A DNA stretch of 64,000 nucleotides from positions 1,054,001 through 1,118,000 of the forward strand of contig NZ_JPNB01000002.1 in NCBI RefSeq assembly GCF_000732725.1. The letters are read 5' to 3'. Position numbers and translations under genes: made by a program. The notes under the pieces are model-generated. The model was not told the DNA's origin, did no database searches, and worked only from the letters and a program-made list of their open reading frames with translations. Of the stretch, positions 1 through 35,609 are shown in pieces. Numbering within the stretch: position 1 is the first letter of the stretch; every line of letters begins with the position of its first letter. The DNA comes from Kineothrix alysoides. Its GTDB lineage: Bacteria; Bacillota; Clostridia; Lachnospirales; Lachnospiraceae.

Positions 1-443
1 AGAGTCTCCGTAAGAACAGGCGAATGCTTCTCGAAATTACGGGCTTCCATCCACCAATCGTTGATAGTTATATTAGAAAAACCAGAACCTGCGTAAATAA
101 TGGAATAAGTAATTCCAAGAATAATAGTAAGCGCCTCTATTTTCCTGCTGCTGATCGAAAGCTCAGGAGAGGGGTTTTTTAAAAATAAAGCGACCATATT
201 TATTGCGGTCAGTAACAAGGGTATTCCAACAAATATCCAAATAAGGGCAAAAACTATAAAATATATGGTTAAGCTATCCCGCTCTAGCCTATGATTCAAT
301 AGTTCTGAAATGAACACAACGACTGCCGGGACAGCCAGAATAGCAAAACTAAGAACCATGCATAAAAGTATCGGATGCTTTTTATAATGAAAAGTAGCTT
401 TTCCAAACACTTCTTTCATGATATTTTTTAACTTTATATCCAT
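1..443 (-). CDS. Membrane protein of unknown function, C-terminus cut by window edge
   Basis: The reading frame is open from an ATG at 443 to the left edge with no stop, giving about 147 residues. An AGGGGAG ribosome-binding site lies about 10 bases upstream. The first 25 residues are basic (lysine and histidine rich), followed by three hydrophobic stretches at roughly residues 27-45, 58-80 and 103-120, so it is an integral membrane protein. I do not recognise the family. Its neighbour to the right is divergent, and the 288 bp between them carry a Fur-type palindrome that could also influence this gene. The C-terminus lies outside the window, so length and function cannot be judged. Confidence 0.7.
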   Translation of the reverse strand, partial: MDIKLKNIMKEVFGKATFHYKKHPILLCMVLSFAILAVPAVVVFISELLNHRLERDSLTIYFIVFALIWIFVGIPLLLTAINMVALFLKNPSPELSISSRKIEALTIILGITYSIIYAGSGFSNITINDWWMEARNFEKHSPVLTET

Positions 444-624
444 TGTATTAATTCTCCCCTATTACGTTAAAAGTTCATTAAACTTTTATTACTTTTAAAT
501 ATTACCACATAAAGCGATAAAATGAAAGAAAAGGGGAAATCTTTCGATTGTTTAAAATATGAGAATACTTTATTATAATAATTATATAGTAAGAAAATAA
601 TAATGAAATAAATAAGTTATAAGT

Positions 625-647
625 TTATTGATAAAATTTATCAATAA
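625..647. promoter_or_regulatory. Fur-type operator palindrome upstream of ferrosome-like cluster
   Basis: Two perfect 11-bp arms, TTATTGATAAA and TTTATCAATAA, flank a single central A. The core TGATAAA-A-TTTATCA has the 7-1-7 layout of Fur-family boxes (consensus TGATAAT-N-ATTATCA) with one difference per arm. It lies about 85 bp before the first small ORF and upstream of a TATAAT -10 element. This fits iron-responsive repression of the P-type ATPase cluster. The regulator identity is inferred; PerR or Zur operators look alike. Confidence 0.7.
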
Positions 648-657
648 TAGGAAATTA

Positions 658-687
658 TTAGCAATCGACAATCGGCCCAGTTATAAT
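658..687 (+). promoter_or_regulatory. Candidate promoter of the ferrosome-like cluster
   Basis: A perfect -10 element TATAAT at 682-687 is preceded after 18 bp by a weak -35, TTAGCA, at 658-663. It follows the Fur-type palindrome directly, so a bound repressor would sit just upstream of the -35. The -35 is poor, so the exact promoter is uncertain. Confidence 0.4.
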
Positions 688-731
688 ATAATGACACCGA
701 TCATTTGTTATTATACTAAGGAGGAAGAGAA

Positions 732-812
732 ATGAAGCACCATAAATATTGGGCGTGGGCGATGGTATTCTGCCTCATAATGACAATATACACCGGACAT
801 AAACACAAATAA
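732..812 (+). CDS. 26-residue basic/hydrophobic peptide, first gene of the cluster
   Basis: ATG at 732 follows a strong AAGGAGGAAG site at 718-727 with ideal spacing, and the frame closes at TAA 810-812. The peptide has a histidine/lysine start (MKHHK), a hydrophobic core from about residue 7 to 20 with two tryptophans, and a histidine/lysine tail (HKHK). It looks like a single-span membrane micropeptide. It is 24 bp upstream of the next gene and almost certainly cotranscribed with it. No family is recognised, but a tiny membrane peptide at the head of a Fur-controlled P1B-ATPase cluster suggests an accessory role in that system. Confidence 0.6.
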   Translation: MKHHKYWAWAMVFCLIMTIYTGHKHK

Positions 813-836
813 TTACGAAAGAGGAGGTATTTAAAA

Positions 837-1106
837 ATGCTCGAATGTTTAAAAAAAATTGATGCGAAAAAAACGGGACTTTTTGCGGCGGGAGTTTTAT
901 TCGGAACCGCCGGAATTAAAATACTCTCAAGCAAGGATGCGAAGAAAGTATATACAAACTGTACGGCTGCAGTTTTGCGGGCAAAGGAATGCGTGATGCA
1001 GACAGTCACTACTGTTCAGGAGAATGCTGAAGATATTTTAGCTGAAGCAAAACAGATAAATGAAGACAGAACGTCCGGGGAAGAAATTGCCGACGGCGAA
1101 GAATAA
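837..1106 (+). CDS. Small FezA-like protein (resembles DUF6110), partner of P-type ATPase
   Basis: This 89-residue protein has an AGAGGAGG ribosome-binding site before ATG 837. The N-terminus is basic (residues 6-13), followed by a short glycine/alanine-rich hydrophobic segment at about residues 14-30. A lysine-rich link leads to an amphipathic, possibly coiled-coil tail that ends acidic. It resembles the DUF6110 family found beside heavy-metal P-type ATPases. In Clostridioides difficile and Desulfovibrio, ferrosome loci pair a small membrane protein (FezA) with a P1B6-ATPase (FezB). Size, hydrophobic segment and position match FezA, but identity is inferred from context. Confidence 0.65.
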   Translation: MLECLKKIDAKKTGLFAAGVLFGTAGIKILSSKDAKKVYTNCTAAVLRAKECVMQTVTTVQENAEDILAEAKQINEDRTSGEEIADGEE

Positions 1107-1145
1107 ACCTAAGGGCTGCGACGGAATTACAAAAGCAGATAAACG

Positions 1146-1193
1146 GTTACTATTTACAGTGTTGCTATAAACCGTAACAATGTGAATAGTAAC
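1146..1193 (+). other. Stem-loop in the leader between the small gene and the ATPase
   Basis: GTTACTATTTAC (1146-1157) can pair with GTGAATAGTAAC (1182-1193), a 12-bp stem with one G-U pair. Inside it, ACGGTT (1143-1148) can alternatively pair with AACCGT (1170-1175), so two exclusive folds are possible just before an intrinsic terminator. This may be an RNA switch or the remains of a dispersed repeat carrying GTTACTATTC. Confidence 0.45.
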
Positions 1194-1198
1194 AGAAA

Positions 1199-1228
1199 AC
1201 GCCTACAGAACTTCTGTAGGTGTTTTTT
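1199..1228 (+). terminator. Intrinsic terminator/attenuator inside the cluster
   Basis: CCTACAGA (1202-1209) pairs with TCTGTAGG (1213-1220), extended by three outer pairs, and a six-T run follows. It lies 15 bp before the ATPase start codon and within the presumed operon. It should therefore reduce or gate read-through into the ATPase gene. Confidence 0.75.
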
Positions 1229-1242
1229 GAAAGGAGAACACA

Positions 1243-3318
1243 TTGAGGTTTATAATTGAACATGAGATAAAAGGCCGTATGCGCATCCATGCCGGCAGCA
1301 ATAAAATGACATATGAACAGGCAGATACCCTGCTATATTATCTGCATAATTTAAAAAATGTCATTTATGCCAAGGTATATGACAGAACCGGCGGCGCGGC
1401 TATTTCCTATGTAGGCTCCAGAGATGATATGATAAGGGCACTTAAGGATTTCCATTATGAAAAGGTGGTGGTTCCTCCAAGCGTTTTGGAAAATTCAGGA
1501 AGAGAGTTGAATACCAAATATCAAGAAAAACTGATAAATAAAGTACTCTTCCATTATGGAAGAAAACTGTTTCTTCCCTATCCTCTCAGGGTGTGCTATA
1601 CCGGAATAAAATCTATAAAATACATATATGAGGGCATAAAATCTCTTTCCAAAGGAAAAGTCGAGGTATCCGTTCTGGATGCTACAGCTATCGGAGTATC
1701 TGTCTTGCGCAGCGACATAGAAACCGCTGGTTCGATTATGTTTCTCTTGGGTATCGGCGAGCTTTTAGAAGAATGGACTCACAAAAAATCGGTAGGGGAC
1801 CTCGCCAGAAGTATGGCACTTAATATCGATAAGGTCTGGCTCGTTAGAAATAGCCAGGAAATATTGGTTCCATCCACAGAAATCGAAGCGGAGGATAAGG
1901 TTCTGGTCCATATGGGAAATGTGGTTCCTTTTGACGGAGAGGTGTTTGCGGGAGAAGCGATGGTAAATCAGGCTTCCCTTACCGGAGAATCCGTACCGGT
2001 AAGGAAATGCAAAGACAGCTATGTATATGCGGGTACCGTGATAGAAGAAGGCGGGCTTACCATTACGGTAAAAGAGACGAAGAACACTACCAAGTTCCAG
2101 AAAATTGTAACAATGATTGAAGAATCGGAAAAATTAAAATCTGCTTTGGAAAGCAAAGCTGCCCATCTGGCGGATAAGCTGGTACCTTATACTCTTGGAG
2201 GAACTGCCCTTACCTATCTTTTGACAAGAAATGTGACGAAAGCGCTGGCAATATTAATGGTAGACTTTTCCTGTGCCCTAAAGCTTTGTATGCCGATATC
2301 CGTTCTGTCAGCCATCCGTGAGGCCAGCCTTTACAATATCACCGTAAAAGGCGGTAAATATCTGGAGGCTATAGCGGATGCAGATACCATCGTCTTCGAT
2401 AAGACCGGTACCCTTACCAAGGCCCAGCCCACTGTTATCAATGTGGTTTCTTTTAATGGAGATTCTCCCGACGAGCTGCTTCGGATGGCTGCCTGCATGG
2501 AAGAGCACTTTCCTCATTCCATGGCTAAAGCCGTAGTAAACGCTGCCAGGGAAAGGAATCTGGAGCATGAAGAAATGCACTCTAAGGTAGATTATATTGT
2601 CGCACACGGTATTTCTACTTTTATAGGCGATAAAAAGGCGATTATCGGCAGCCACCACTTCGTGTTCGAGGATGAGAGCTGCGAACTTCCTCAGGGTACG
2701 GAGGAGAAGTTCCGTAATTTGCCCGAAGAACAATCTCACCTATACCTTGCCATAGACAACAAGCTGGCAGGAGTCATCTGCATAGAAGATCCTCTCAGAG
2801 AAGAAGCCGAGGGAATCATCAACTCCTTGAAAAAAGCCGGAATAAACAAGATAGTCATGATGACTGGCGATAACGAACGCACTGCTGCCTCTATCGCAAA
2901 GATGGTGGGTGTAGATGAATACTATTCAGAGGTACTTCCCGAAGACAAGGCGAAATATATTGAAAAAGAAAAAGCTGAGGGAAAAAAGGTGATTATGGTA
3001 GGGGACGGCATTAACGATTCTCCCGCCCTATCTGCCGCCGACGTAGGAATAGCTATCAGCGACGGAGCTGAAATTGCCAGAGAAATCGCAGATATCATTA
3101 TTGGCGAAGACAACCTCTTCGGAGTGGTTACCTTGAAGCTGCTTAGTGACAGCCTGATGAAACGCATCAGCAAGAACTATCGCTTCATTGTCGGCTTTAA
3201 CTCCGGATTGATCGCTCTGGGAGCCGGAGGCGTCCTGCAGCCCGCAACCTCTGCGCTGCTGCACAACACCTCCACGCTGGCCGTGAGCGTAAGGAGCATG
3301 AGTAATTTACTGGAATAA
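1243..3318 (+). CDS. P1B-type metal ATPase, FezB-like (ferrosome ATPase)
   Basis: This 691-residue ATPase starts with TTG at 1243, six bases after AAGGAG. Residues 1-75 form an HMA-like domain that lacks CxxC and instead carries a basic GRMR motif near residue 11. The actuator loop has TGES (247-250). The phosphorylation motif DKTGTLT has its aspartate at 386, and a GDGINDSP hinge follows. In the ion-binding helix the usual CPx is replaced by S-C-A-L-K (343-347), and CMP follows at 349-351. A cysteine-free HMA domain and an altered CPx site fit the P1B6/FezB group that loads iron into ferrosomes. Fur-box control of the cluster and the small membrane partner upstream support this. A transporter for another transition metal is the alternative. 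Confidence 0.8.
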   Translation: MRFIIEHEIKGRMRIHAGSNKMTYEQADTLLYYLHNLKNVIYAKVYDRTGGAAISYVGSRDDMIRALKDFHYEKVVVPPSVLENSGRELNTKYQEKLINKVLFHYGRKLFLPYPLRVCYTGIKSIKYIYEGIKSLSKGKVEVSVLDATAIGVSVLRSDIETAGSIMFLLGIGELLEEWTHKKSVGDLARSMALNIDKVWLVRNSQEILVPSTEIEAEDKVLVHMGNVVPFDGEVFAGEAMVNQASLTGESVPVRKCKDSYVYAGTVIEEGGLTITVKETKNTTKFQKIVTMIEESEKLKSALESKAAHLADKLVPYTLGGTALTYLLTRNVTKALAILMVDFSCALKLCMPISVLSAIREASLYNITVKGGKYLEAIADADTIVFDKTGTLTKAQPTVINVVSFNGDSPDELLRMAACMEEHFPHSMAKAVVNAARERNLEHEEMHSKVDYIVAHGISTFIGDKKAIIGSHHFVFEDESCELPQGTEEKFRNLPEEQSHLYLAIDNKLAGVICIEDPLREEAEGIINSLKKAGINKIVMMTGDNERTAASIAKMVGVDEYYSEVLPEDKAKYIEKEKAEGKKVIMVGDGINDSPALSAADVGIAISDGAEIAREIADIIIGEDNLFGVVTLKLLSDSLMKRISKNYRFIVGFNSGLIALGAGGVLQPATSALLHNTSTLAVSVRSMSNLLE

Positions 3319-3319
3319 A

Positions 3320-4507
3320 TTAAAGCGCCCCGGCAAATTGTTTGCCGAATTCCACACAAGAGGCAAGGCCCTCCTCATCCGGAACCCAAAGCAGACGCAG
3401 GCCGTCATTGACGACTTCAAAGCCTCCTTCACCGAGGGCCTTCGTCAATTGCTTCACCGACTCGCCGCTCCAGCCGTAGCTTCCAAAAGCTGCGGCTTTT
3501 TTGTTTTTTAATTTAAGGCCCTTCATCATCTCGAGAATGCCGCCCATAGAAAAGAGCAATCCGTTGTTAATAGTAGAGGAGCCTGCAAGAATGGCTTTGG
3601 AGCGAAATACCTCTGTAATAATATCGTTCTTGTCCTCCTTCGCAGCATTCATCAGCTTGACCGTTATCGAGGAATCGGCGTGACGGATTCCCTCCGCTAT
3701 GGCTTCCGCCATTTTACGGGTGGAATTCCACATAGTATCATAAACTAATGTAACCTGATTTTCCTGATAGTTATCCGCCCACTTTAAATAGCTCTCTATG
3801 ATCTGAGCCGGGTTATCCTTCCAGATTACTCCATGGCTGGTGCAGATCATATCTACCGGAAGGTTAAGAGCCAGAACCTCTTTGATTTTCTTCATAACGA
3901 GAGGACTGAAGGGCGTAAGGATATTCGCATAATATTTCAATGCCTCCGCAAAAAGCTCCGCTTCATCCACAGCATCGTTATAGAGAGACTCTGTTGCATA
4001 ATGCTGTCCAAAGGCATCGTTGCTGAAAAGGATATTCTCCCCTGTCATATAGGTCATCATGCTGTCCGGCCAATGAAGCATGGGAGCCTCCACGAAAACC
4101 AGCTTGCTTTCACCAATATCCAGGGAATCTCCGGTCTTAACAGTAACAAAATTCCATTCCTGATGATAATGACCCTTTATTATTTTCACACCGTTCGCCG
4201 TACAATAAATGGGAGTATCCGGAATCTCTCTCATCAATTCGGGCAATGCGCCGCTATGATCGATTTCATTGTGGTTCATAATAATATAGTCGATTTTCTT
4301 TAAATCGATTTCCTGCTTTAGCCTGGTTACGAACTCTTTGTCATAGGGCTGCCATACCGTGTCGATCAGCACTGTTTTTTGATCTCTGATTAAATAAGAA
4401 TTGTAGGAAGAGCCTCTGTGGGTGGAATACTCATCCCCATGAAACTTCACAAGCTCCCAGTCCGTTTTTCCTACCCAGCTAACTTTATCGGTTAATTTCT
4501 TTCCCAT
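3320..4507 (-). CDS. Flavodiiron protein (FprA-type A flavoprotein), O2/NO reductase
   Basis: The protein has 395 residues, the normal length for a two-domain flavodiiron protein. The N-terminal metallo-beta-lactamase-like domain carries the diiron ligands H79-x-E81-x-D83-H84, H145, D164 and H225. The C-terminal flavodoxin domain begins near residue 253 with the FMN-binding Y-D-T-M-W-N-S-T loop. The enzyme reduces oxygen (and often NO) to harmless products in anaerobes, using rubredoxin-derived electrons; no fused rubredoxin is present. The gene converges on the ATPase gene with one base between the stop codons. Its placement beside an iron-storage cluster fits a stress and iron neighbourhood. 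Confidence 0.93.
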   Translation of the reverse strand: MGKKLTDKVSWVGKTDWELVKFHGDEYSTHRGSSYNSYLIRDQKTVLIDTVWQPYDKEFVTRLKQEIDLKKIDYIIMNHNEIDHSGALPELMREIPDTPIYCTANGVKIIKGHYHQEWNFVTVKTGDSLDIGESKLVFVEAPMLHWPDSMMTYMTGENILFSNDAFGQHYATESLYNDAVDEAELFAEALKYYANILTPFSPLVMKKIKEVLALNLPVDMICTSHGVIWKDNPAQIIESYLKWADNYQENQVTLVYDTMWNSTRKMAEAIAEGIRHADSSITVKLMNAAKEDKNDIITEVFRSKAILAGSSTINNGLLFSMGGILEMMKGLKLKNKKAAAFGSYGWSGESVKQLTKALGEGGFEVVNDGLRLLWVPDEEGLASCVEFGKQFAGAL

Positions 4508-4657
4508 AAAATACCTCCTTTTTTCTTTCCTTTTTATACTTTCCGTTTTTCTTATTATTTAATCATACCTGAAATCCTTGGCAGGTACAAGTTCTATCAG
4601 ATAATATCGGGTTTAAAATTCCTTTTTTAAAAATAGGAAATGGTTAAAATAGCTTAC

Positions 4658-4686
4658 TTGTAAACAACAAATATAAAAAGTATAAT
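4658..4686 (+). promoter_or_regulatory. Sigma-A-type promoter of the AraC-VOC operon
   Basis: TTGTAA (4658-4663), a 17-bp spacer and a perfect TATAAT (4681-4686) face the AraC-type gene. The start codon is about 95 bp downstream. Confidence 0.7.
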
Positions 4687-4779
4687 ATATTTGGAAATAT
4701 CCACATCTAACTATGTAAAAACGAATACCGACTTACTGAGACATCTATGACTTTATCAAACAAGAAAGGAGAGTGTACC

Positions 4780-5607
4780 GTGCTTATTCATAGTGATAAC
4801 GCCTTTAATATAAGCCCGCCACACATACTGCTCAATGAGTATGTCTTTTTCTATAATGTAGTTTTCCCAACCCCAGGTATGTTCGTAGCGAATTATACTC
4901 TTATGCCGGACGCTTGCGGTACATTATCTCTCACTTTTAATGGAAGAAATATTCAGGCCGAATTATGGGGGGCTTCTGTAACTCCTACCTTGCTTGGAAC
5001 CGAGCCTAACAAATATCATGTTATGCTGCTAATACAGCTTTCACCCTATGGCCTGTACCAAATAACGCATTGTCATCAGGGCGAATTAGCAGATAAACGT
5101 TTATTGCTGGAAAATGTTGATAAGAGGCTTTTCACTTCTCTTTGCCAAGCTTTTGAGACTGCCGACAATATATCGGGACTATTCAGTATGTGCGATAAGA
5201 TTTTATATAGCCGCATGGAGCATTGCATTGTTTCTGAAGCCCTACTCTCTGCAACAAGAAAAATTTCGGATAACCAGGGTCAAATACTTGTCTCTGAACT
5301 TGCCAAAAAGGTTGGCTATAGTGAGCGGCAATTGAATCGCTTATTCCTGATGCAAATAGGTATGAATGTCAAAAGCTATACCCGCCTTGTTCGTTTTAAC
5401 TATGTGTTAAGTAATATACAAAAATCGCCTTACTTCTTCTCGGAATTATCACAACAAGCCGGATATTTTGATCAACCCCATTTTGACAAGGATTTCAAAG
5501 CGATTAGTGGTGTTACTCCTCAGAATTATTTGAAAACTATGTCGGATTTCTACTATGATGCTTCAGAAGTATCCCCTATGCTATCATTAAGGAGGGATAG
5601 CATATGA
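4780..5607 (+). CDS. AraC-family transcriptional regulator
   Basis: The C-terminal third has two helix-turn-helix motifs typical of AraC proteins: an ISELAKKVGYSERQLNRLF-like first helix pair and a second one around GYFDQPHFDKDFKAISGVTP. The N-terminal 130 residues form a sensing domain that I cannot assign. I place the start at GTG 4780, because AAAGGAGAG lies six bases upstream. An in-frame ATG at 4747 has no ribosome-binding site. That gives 275 residues. The last codons overlap the start of the VOC gene by four bases (ATGA), so the two are translationally coupled and the regulator probably controls a response that involves its partner. Confidence 0.85.
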   Translation: MLIHSDNAFNISPPHILLNEYVFFYNVVFPTPGMFVANYTLMPDACGTLSLTFNGRNIQAELWGASVTPTLLGTEPNKYHVMLLIQLSPYGLYQITHCHQGELADKRLLLENVDKRLFTSLCQAFETADNISGLFSMCDKILYSRMEHCIVSEALLSATRKISDNQGQILVSELAKKVGYSERQLNRLFLMQIGMNVKSYTRLVRFNYVLSNIQKSPYFFSELSQQAGYFDQPHFDKDFKAISGVTPQNYLKTMSDFYYDASEVSPMLSLRRDSI

Positions 5608-6062
5608 AATATCAAGGTTGTTTATTAGCGGTTAAGGATATGACCGCATCAAAAAATTTTTATGAAAAGGTGCTTCACCAGAAGATTCTTATGGACATTG
5701 GTCTACACGTCACCTTTGAGGGATTTTCTCTACAGCAGGGGTATGCCGAGTTGATTGGCATTCCGGCAGACAGCGTCCGGGAACAATCACATAATTTTCA
5801 AGTCTATTTTCAAGTAGAGGATTTGAATACAGTGTACACTGAACTAAAACAGATACCTGGTTTGTTATGGGTACATGAGATAACGGAATATCCGTGGGGA
5901 CAGTGTGCCATTCGGATTTATGACCCGGACAAGCATATTGTAGAAATTGCGGAGGATATGGATGTGGTTATCAAGCGCTTCATTGGACAGGGTATGTCGG
6001 TTGAGGAAGTTGCCGAGCGCACCATGTTTCCTCTTGAGATCGTGAAACAATATGCGGGCTGA
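5604..6062 (+). CDS. VOC (glyoxalase/bleomycin-resistance) family protein
   Basis: The 152-residue protein starts at an ATG that overlaps the AraC stop, behind a strong AAGGAGGG site. Residues 1-118 have the vicinal-oxygen-chelate pattern: an opening MKYQG-LLAVKDM strand, a mid-domain FQVYFQVEDL, and a closing IYDPDKHIVEIAED motif that typically supplies a metal-ligand glutamate. The last 30 residues form a short helical tail resembling a small HTH (SVEEVAERTMFPLEIVK). Members isomerise, cleave or bind small molecules; the substrate is unknown. It is coupled to the AraC gene and followed by a terminator. Confidence 0.85.
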   Translation: MKYQGCLLAVKDMTASKNFYEKVLHQKILMDIGLHVTFEGFSLQQGYAELIGIPADSVREQSHNFQVYFQVEDLNTVYTELKQIPGLLWVHEITEYPWGQCAIRIYDPDKHIVEIAEDMDVVIKRFIGQGMSVEEVAERTMFPLEIVKQYAG

Positions 6063-35560: not shown

Positions 35561-35609
35561 TGATAATAATTACTATCATTATAATTGATATTATTGATAA
35601 TAATTATCA
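35561..35609. promoter_or_regulatory. Fur box (perfect core) in the adhesin/HTH divergent region
   Basis: TGATAAT-A-ATTATCA at 35595-35609 matches the 7-1-7 Fur core exactly. Just upstream AATGATA...TATCATT (35560-35580) forms a second imperfect palindrome, and GATA-type hexamers link the two, which suggests cooperative Fur binding. The rest of the 349-bp region is AT-rich, with a possible -35 TTGTCT near 35638 and TAATAT near 35660 for the adhesin gene. Confidence 0.72.

Follow-up and report, generated by a model that had tools for sequence, protein, structure and literature searches.

A candidate fez ferrosome operon in Kineothrix alysoides that includes a conserved 26-residue microprotein

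A 64,000-nucleotide stretch of the Kineothrix alysoides genome (contig NZ_JPNB01000002.1, positions 1,054,001 to 1,118,000; the window) contains near its left end a group of genes that resembles the fez operons of ferrosomes. Ferrosomes are membrane-bounded, iron-storing compartments with granules of iron phosphate; they have been described only recently, and their list of parts is short. On balance we favor a reading of this locus as a fez ferrosome operon with a Fur-family-type operator, encoding FezA (a DUF6110 protein), FezB (a P1B6-type metal ATPase) and a 26-residue peptide that acts as an accessory one-helix subunit of FezA-FezB. Behind this reading are the homology of the two larger proteins and the operator-promoter geometry seen in most relatives, together with three observations on the peptide: it is conserved as a protein, it is encoded within the operon, and it accompanies the module in other genomes. 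This conserved peptide, which in the genomes surveyed is almost confined to those with the fez module, offers a new component that can be tested, and annotation tends to overlook proteins of this sort. An earlier note on this DNA had described a palindrome, two small open reading frames (ORFs), an ATPase gene and a convergent flavodiiron gene, all of which were found in place when the sequence was re-read (Table 1), and its ferrosome-type reading gains support from the homology of the ATPase and DUF6110 protein to those of Clostridioides difficile.

The ATPase and DUF6110 proteins

Across its full length of 691 residues the ATPase shares 61% identity with a C. difficile pump (locus L189), compared with 30–34% for the three other P1B pumps of this genome. 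Those three paralogues have a general P1B profile as their best match and a copper or cadmium one as the next, and in a quick tree of 85 pumps, which carries long-branch warnings, they lie on the other side of a branch from the ATPase, whose five nearest relatives by tree path are all from Lachnospiraceae. The grouping questioned in the earlier note is thus with the FezB-type pump and apart from the genome's own Cu/Cd-type pumps, a P1B6 placement defined by comparison with these three paralogues. Identity as a copper or zinc pump was rejected on the same identities and tree.

An SCA-type site in place of CPC is a mark of P1B6 pumps. None of the 30 aligned pumps departs from S343, C344, A345, L346 and K347 or from H674, N675, S677 and T678 (HNxST), and in a more diverse set of 23 pumps the serine of SCALK is replaced by cysteine in one (L167). 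An HN motif in a late transmembrane helix is named as a P1B6 feature in PMC9374683. The earlier note correctly reported that the ATPase lacks CxxC and carries SCALK (residues 343–347), but its description of the pump as cysteine-free was mistaken: there are seven cysteines (118, 256, 344, 349, 418, 480 and 513), and the cysteine-free part is the N-terminal 117 residues only, which match HMA_2 below the cut-off (15.5 versus 30 bits). By homology, FezB of the P1B6 type is a well-supported assignment for this predicted pump.

The 89-residue protein belongs to DUF6110 (141.8 bits against a gathering cut-off of 26). Over 66 residues it shares 61% identity with its DUF6110 counterpart at a C. difficile-type locus (L176). 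We take L176 as Clostridioides because its pump is matched at 93% by those of the C. difficile loci L188 and L189. Gene order suggests that the DUF6110 protein would be the FezA of C. difficile, and homology makes FezA a well-supported candidate identity for the 89-residue protein.

Conservation of the 26-residue peptide

Judged from its pattern of variation, the 26-residue frame is a real gene, conserved as a protein. The earlier note had offered conservation in relatives as a check on this frame, and it is present before DUF6110 in 39 of 75 assessable named loci (80 in total, with five left out for want of a full DUF6110 or because of a contig end). These include 23 of 37 loci in Lachnospiraceae, 4 of 10 in Oscillospiraceae, 1 of 4 in Clostridiaceae and 8 of 17 of less precise rank, together with single loci of Butyricicoccaceae, Anaerotignaceae and Acutalibacteraceae; neither the two assessable named loci of Peptostreptococcaceae nor the two of Eubacteriaceae have it. 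A survey of the family places the peptide within 500 bases 5′ of DUF6110 in 21 of 60 places examined, leaving out one weak DUF6110 place (genome G010).

The 39 copies comprise 35 distinct sequences in which His4, Ala8, Thr21 and Gly22 are fixed (39/39), with diversities of 0.251, 0.147 and 0.499 at codon positions 1, 2 and 3, respectively, and a Shine-Dalgarno-like motif at 36 of the 39 loci. Across a wider set of 41 aligned copies His4, Ala8 and Gly22 are invariant and His25 is kept in 26. With 35 distinct conserved peptides and a common box-promoter geometry (see below), the signal goes beyond chance. No NCBIfam model matched the peptide; it matches Pfam DUF6219 at 29.7 bits (gathering cut-off 27), covering profile positions 29–50 of 69 only. 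Its sequence suggests that it would insert into the membrane.

That the frame is instead a regulatory leader, whose translation rather than product controls fezAB, is highly improbable. In its favor, the frame is the first short ORF of the operon, and strong hairpins lie downstream in the fezA-fezB gap. Against it, the codons vary at their third positions where the amino acids are kept; some copies of the frame follow the ATPase gene or are sited at another place in the genome; the unit also exists as a duplicated protein (DUF6219); and the 5′ leader of the peptide (694–735) has no notable fold. Both a chance ORF and a leader peptide were rejected on the codon-position variation and the relocated copies.

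Co-occurrence of the peptide with the fez module

A broader peptide model (E ≤ 1e-4) matches 37 of 150 genomes of the family, which divide by score into 27 with a strong single-unit copy (≥47.9 bits) and 10 with weaker, mostly DUF6219-type copies only. DUF6110 is present in 26 of the 27 strong-copy genomes compared with 60 of 150 overall (59 over the cut-off; Fisher 1.5e-11, kinship being ignored in this and other Fisher values), and the 27th (G021) encodes the peptide, a DUF1490-like protein (below the cut-off) and a P1B6-like pump in a row. Nine of the 10 weaker-copy genomes also have DUF6110, the tenth (G042) having no P1B6 pump. At the level of the class, DUF6110 accompanies the peptide in 9 of 9 genomes with copies at E ≤ 1.6e-6, against 25 of 341 overall (21 over the cut-off), a count that leaves out five genomes with peptide E-values of 0.006–0.01. 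A phylum survey adds one genome to those already counted (4 of 299 match, three of them included above), and in this member of another class (L271) the peptide, DUF6110 and ATPase are in one row. The order is not fixed, as a peptide copy (L161) is directly 3′ of the pump in one class genome and a weaker relative (L159) is placed likewise in one family genome. A second copy of the peptide and DUF6110 is present at L171 (G184:C7), with no pump in the 7.5 kb viewed.

Several observations weigh against a dedicated FezA-FezB subunit. About half of fez loci, those of C. difficile among them, have no adjacent peptide, so it cannot be a universal requirement of the system. A quick ATPase tree of 76 scored loci implies at least 17 changes between its presence and absence. 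Strong single-unit copies lie away from fez genes in 5 of the 27 family genomes and 3 of the 9 class genomes; these orphans adjoin unrelated genes, and a fez-type operator was looked for near them and not found. DUF6219 sits in other operons, and in G042 it occurs without a P1B6 pump. Nor do the conserved residues line up along a single face of the helix (permutation p 0.41), so a simple packing stripe is not supported by this test.

Some of these features would fit a general membrane stress microprotein for iron or peroxide handling that acts apart from FezA and FezB and is merely co-regulated with them. The orphan copies in unrelated neighborhoods and the recurrent position of DUF6219 upstream of predicted peroxide- and iron-related genes (see below) favor this alternative, but single-unit copies co-occur near-perfectly with the fez module in both the family and class surveys, and we consider it fairly unlikely.

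DUF6219 and a possible role in haem binding

DUF6219 (PF19727) is a tandem pair of the peptide helix unit, each half of which matches the peptide model separately, whereas the 26-residue peptide is one unit. In a set of eight DUF6219 proteins His4 and His30 are invariant and His49 is present in seven, and all three are invariant in 6 of 6 two-unit proteins from viral contigs. We viewed 12 DUF6219-type loci (L162–L165 and L272–L279). At six of them (L163, L272–L275 and L278, from five genomes) DUF6219 is just 5′ of ORFs of 151 and 249–250 residues; in L163, the one locus scanned, these encode an AhpC/TSA peroxiredoxin and YaaA, a protein that lowers free iron in Escherichia coli. The arrangement appears to be a recurrent operon of a peroxide/iron type. 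DUF6219 also neighbors, among others, an FMN reductase in L162 and a pyridoxamine-oxidase-like protein in L164. No mention of the term DUF6219 was found in the literature searched. In one genus the peptide unit also reads in frame with the C-terminus of a metallo-beta-lactamase-fold protein; in another it forms an ORF of its own just 3′ of a gene for a protein of that fold (L153:3189-4139; L152:3123-4043).

The invariant histidines raise the question of a redox micro-subunit, in which two peptides would hold haem b between their His4 residues at one membrane face and do the iron-redox job proposed for the cytochrome FezC of Desulfovibrio ferrosomes. PsbE and PsbF hold haem b in this way in cytochrome b559. 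All 41 aligned copies carry His4, the histidines of the two-unit proteins are conserved as above, and a DUF6219 hairpin would put His4 and His49 on the same side. FezC is reported as a DUF4405-like cytochrome in PMC10979944, and DUF4405 has no match in this genome. The best PDB profile match of the peptide is helix 1 of a hydrogenase b-type cytochrome (E 0.064), and Cytochrom_B561 matches 1 of 41 members weakly (E 0.047). However, the cytochrome match is not significant and aligns the cytochrome histidine to Ala8, not His4; His25 is kept in just 26 of the 41 copies; and a PDB single-sequence search with a composite family string gave no match. The motif H.[FWY].[AGS]x12[TS]G has no matches in 408,726 residues of long frames, a result that is not informative on haem. 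We regard this redox role as unlikely. The fuller version, in which a one-helix cytochrome pairs via His4, holds haem b in the ferrosome membrane, keeps stored iron mobile by passing on electrons and replaces FezC, with DUF6219 doing the same in a peroxide-defence operon, is a shade more doubtful.

Operator and promoter geometry

The core of the palindrome, TGATAAAATTTATCA, has 12 of the 14 letters of the consensus TGATAATnATTATCA, and when the 500 bases upstream are shuffled 200 times, 5 of the shuffled sequences score as well. Where the earlier note saw a near-consensus Fur core in a perfect 11-1-11 palindrome, the palindrome and the 12 of 14 letters stand, and the match to the Fur consensus taken alone is of modest strength. 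The perfect site TTGATAAnnnTTATCAA occurs once in the whole 4.68-Mb genome (an assembly of three contigs), and at up to one mismatch there are nine genome sites compared with one for the reversed pattern. By plain matching, 18 of 39 peptide loci and 15 of 36 other loci have a box of at least 11 of 14 letters in the 300 bases upstream, against 17 of 464 control windows. The box ends 80–121 bases 5′ of the peptide start in 16 of the 18 box-bearing peptide loci, so the peptide is the first cistron there.

A box-only model finds the motif in 47 of 78 fez upstream regions, the window included, and at 40 of these 47 sites the best promoter-like pair (searched from -60 to +60) has a -35 element starting 22–25 bases past the box center; when the flanks are shuffled (n=200), 1.1 sites on average and at most 7 have this spacing. 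The box center is thus usually near -59. Seven sites depart from the common spacing, among them the window, whose best promoter pair starts at +29 and whose second starts at +22 from the box center. Its box is upstream of the predicted -35, not on it, and there is a near-twin site before a PerR-like regulator gene. This near-twin is at L316:3152-3174 (G000:C3) in the same genome, ahead of the PerR-like regulator and rubrerythrin; it overlaps its best predicted promoter and has a second promoter at +27, and the feo site of this genome has other box-to-promoter distances. Six proteins of the genome match the Fur family. We take the palindrome as a candidate Fur-family-type operator, and the protein that binds it may be Fur or PerR-like and may act as a repressor or an activator.

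The operator geometry suggests that Fur might activate fez, as it activates pfeT of Bacillus subtilis according to PMC9993123. We do not adopt this proposal: an operator similar to the fez one precedes feoA in L180 with the -35 at +27, and fez of C. difficile is reported as Fur-repressed in PMC12574912.

A box-plus-promoter model was run over 2.65 million positions on both strands of the loci and window, overlapping and training loci included, and its high scores are mostly fez promoters. The remainder are FeoA in L180, the PerR-like regulator with rubrerythrin in this genome, window position 35602 (minus strand), L165, and the reverse strand of the fez palindrome. The match at 35602 scores 20.3 and lies ~245 bases ahead of a 475-residue ORF. 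Operator control of the orphan peptides and DUF6219 operons was considered and rejected, as no fez-type operator was found (13 loci, best 8–10 of 14 letters; 15 non-fez-type targets). A fez-type operator was not found at the fez locus of another class (L271) either.

Proposed function and organization of the locus

In the ferrosome reading that we favor, FezA, a PacL-like scaffold with one helix, would help to build membrane compartments, and FezB would load their lumen with ferrous iron. The 26-residue peptide, translated from the transcript that also carries fezAB, would add a third component to the membrane, most likely packing against FezA or FezB and helping to assemble or tune the pump in a KdpF-like manner. 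The compartments in this organism, iron as their cargo, the membrane insertion and contacts of the peptide, and the stoichiometry are what we infer from the data above. Strong hairpins in the fezA-fezB gap would keep the pump less abundant than the two small proteins.

Together these two hairpins have a minimum free energy of -48.9 kcal/mol (z -8.0). The second ends in a T-tract and is terminator-like; a consensus scan had listed it on the minus strand only. In relatives the fezA-fezB gap ranges from an overlap to 230 bases, and is 579 in L188, so the hairpins are not a universal feature. Rfam gave no match at E 0.1 within positions 1–6000 of the window.

Table 1. Features of the candidate fez locus, in window coordinates.
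Feature	Coordinates	Strand	Evidence
Operator palindrome, Fur-family type	625..647	.	Perfect 11-1-11, TTATTGATAAA-A-TTTATCAATAA
Predicted promoters TCGACA-16-TATAAT (665–692, 11/12) and TTAGCA-18-TATAAT (658–687, 10/12)	658..692	+	Consensus promoter scan
26-residue single-helix microprotein, MKHHKYWAWAMVFCLIMTIYTGHKHK	732..812	+	Ribosome-binding site AAGGAGG at 718–724; DUF6219 half-match, 29.7 bits
FezA candidate, 89 residues, DUF6110 (PacL-like)	837..1106	+	Pfam, 141.8 bits
fezA-fezB intergenic region, two strong RNA hairpins (1146–1193, 1194–1228)	1107..1242	+	Folding
FezB candidate, P1B6-type metal ATPase, 691 residues, TTG start	1243..3318	+	TIGR01525, 494.7 bits
Flavodiiron protein, convergent neighbor	3320..4507	-	NF008887, 733.8 bits

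One base separates the convergent ends of the flavodiiron and ATPase genes. We treat the flavodiiron gene as a neighbor, and at most a possible member, of the ferrosome system. To the left, a divergent DUF6688 gene (1–443, minus strand) has the palindrome-bearing upstream region in common with the fez operon. In two other loci fez genes adjoin feo genes: FeoB, a FeoB-associated protein and FeoA are encoded 5′ of DUF6110 in L177, and two FeoA ORFs are 3′ of the pump in L180, with an operator that resembles the fez one.

Comparison with known systems

The closest known system is fezAB of C. difficile, which like this locus encodes a DUF6110 protein and then a P1B6 ATPase (~60% identity), with Fur-type boxes upstream. 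It is given as CD630_05910-05920 in PMC11651100, to which the loci compared here presumably correspond. The C. difficile loci L188 and L189 and the C. difficile-type locus L176 differ in that no 26-residue peptide was found in them. In L176 and L189 the -35 starts 15 bases past the center of the box (TGATATAAATTATCA), and L188 and L189 have a second, weaker box with the -35 at 22–23.

KdpF is a very short single-span protein encoded with the P-type ATPase KdpFABC. The peptide is likened to it by description and, unlike KdpF, is not tied to one operon. Desulfovibrio FezABC, also compared by description, has the DUF4405-like cytochrome FezC, whereas this genome has no DUF4405 match.

The mycobacterial PacL/CtpC platforms (DUF1490) resemble this locus in having a one-helix scaffold gene beside a P1B6-like pump. 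PMC9374683 describes a kinship of DUF6110 with DUF1490, with DUF6110 genes typically found beside those of P1B6 pumps, and reports DUF6110 proteins to be without the predicted metal-binding motif. According to the same paper CtpC has CPC in its fourth transmembrane helix, where the ATPase here has SCA; zinc export by CtpC contrasts with the iron storage proposed here. A term search of the main text of two efflux-platform papers that name DUF6110 found no mention of ferrosomes or FezA. Tying FezA to the PacL-like DUF6110 scaffolds makes a link between an iron compartment and a metal efflux platform directly testable.

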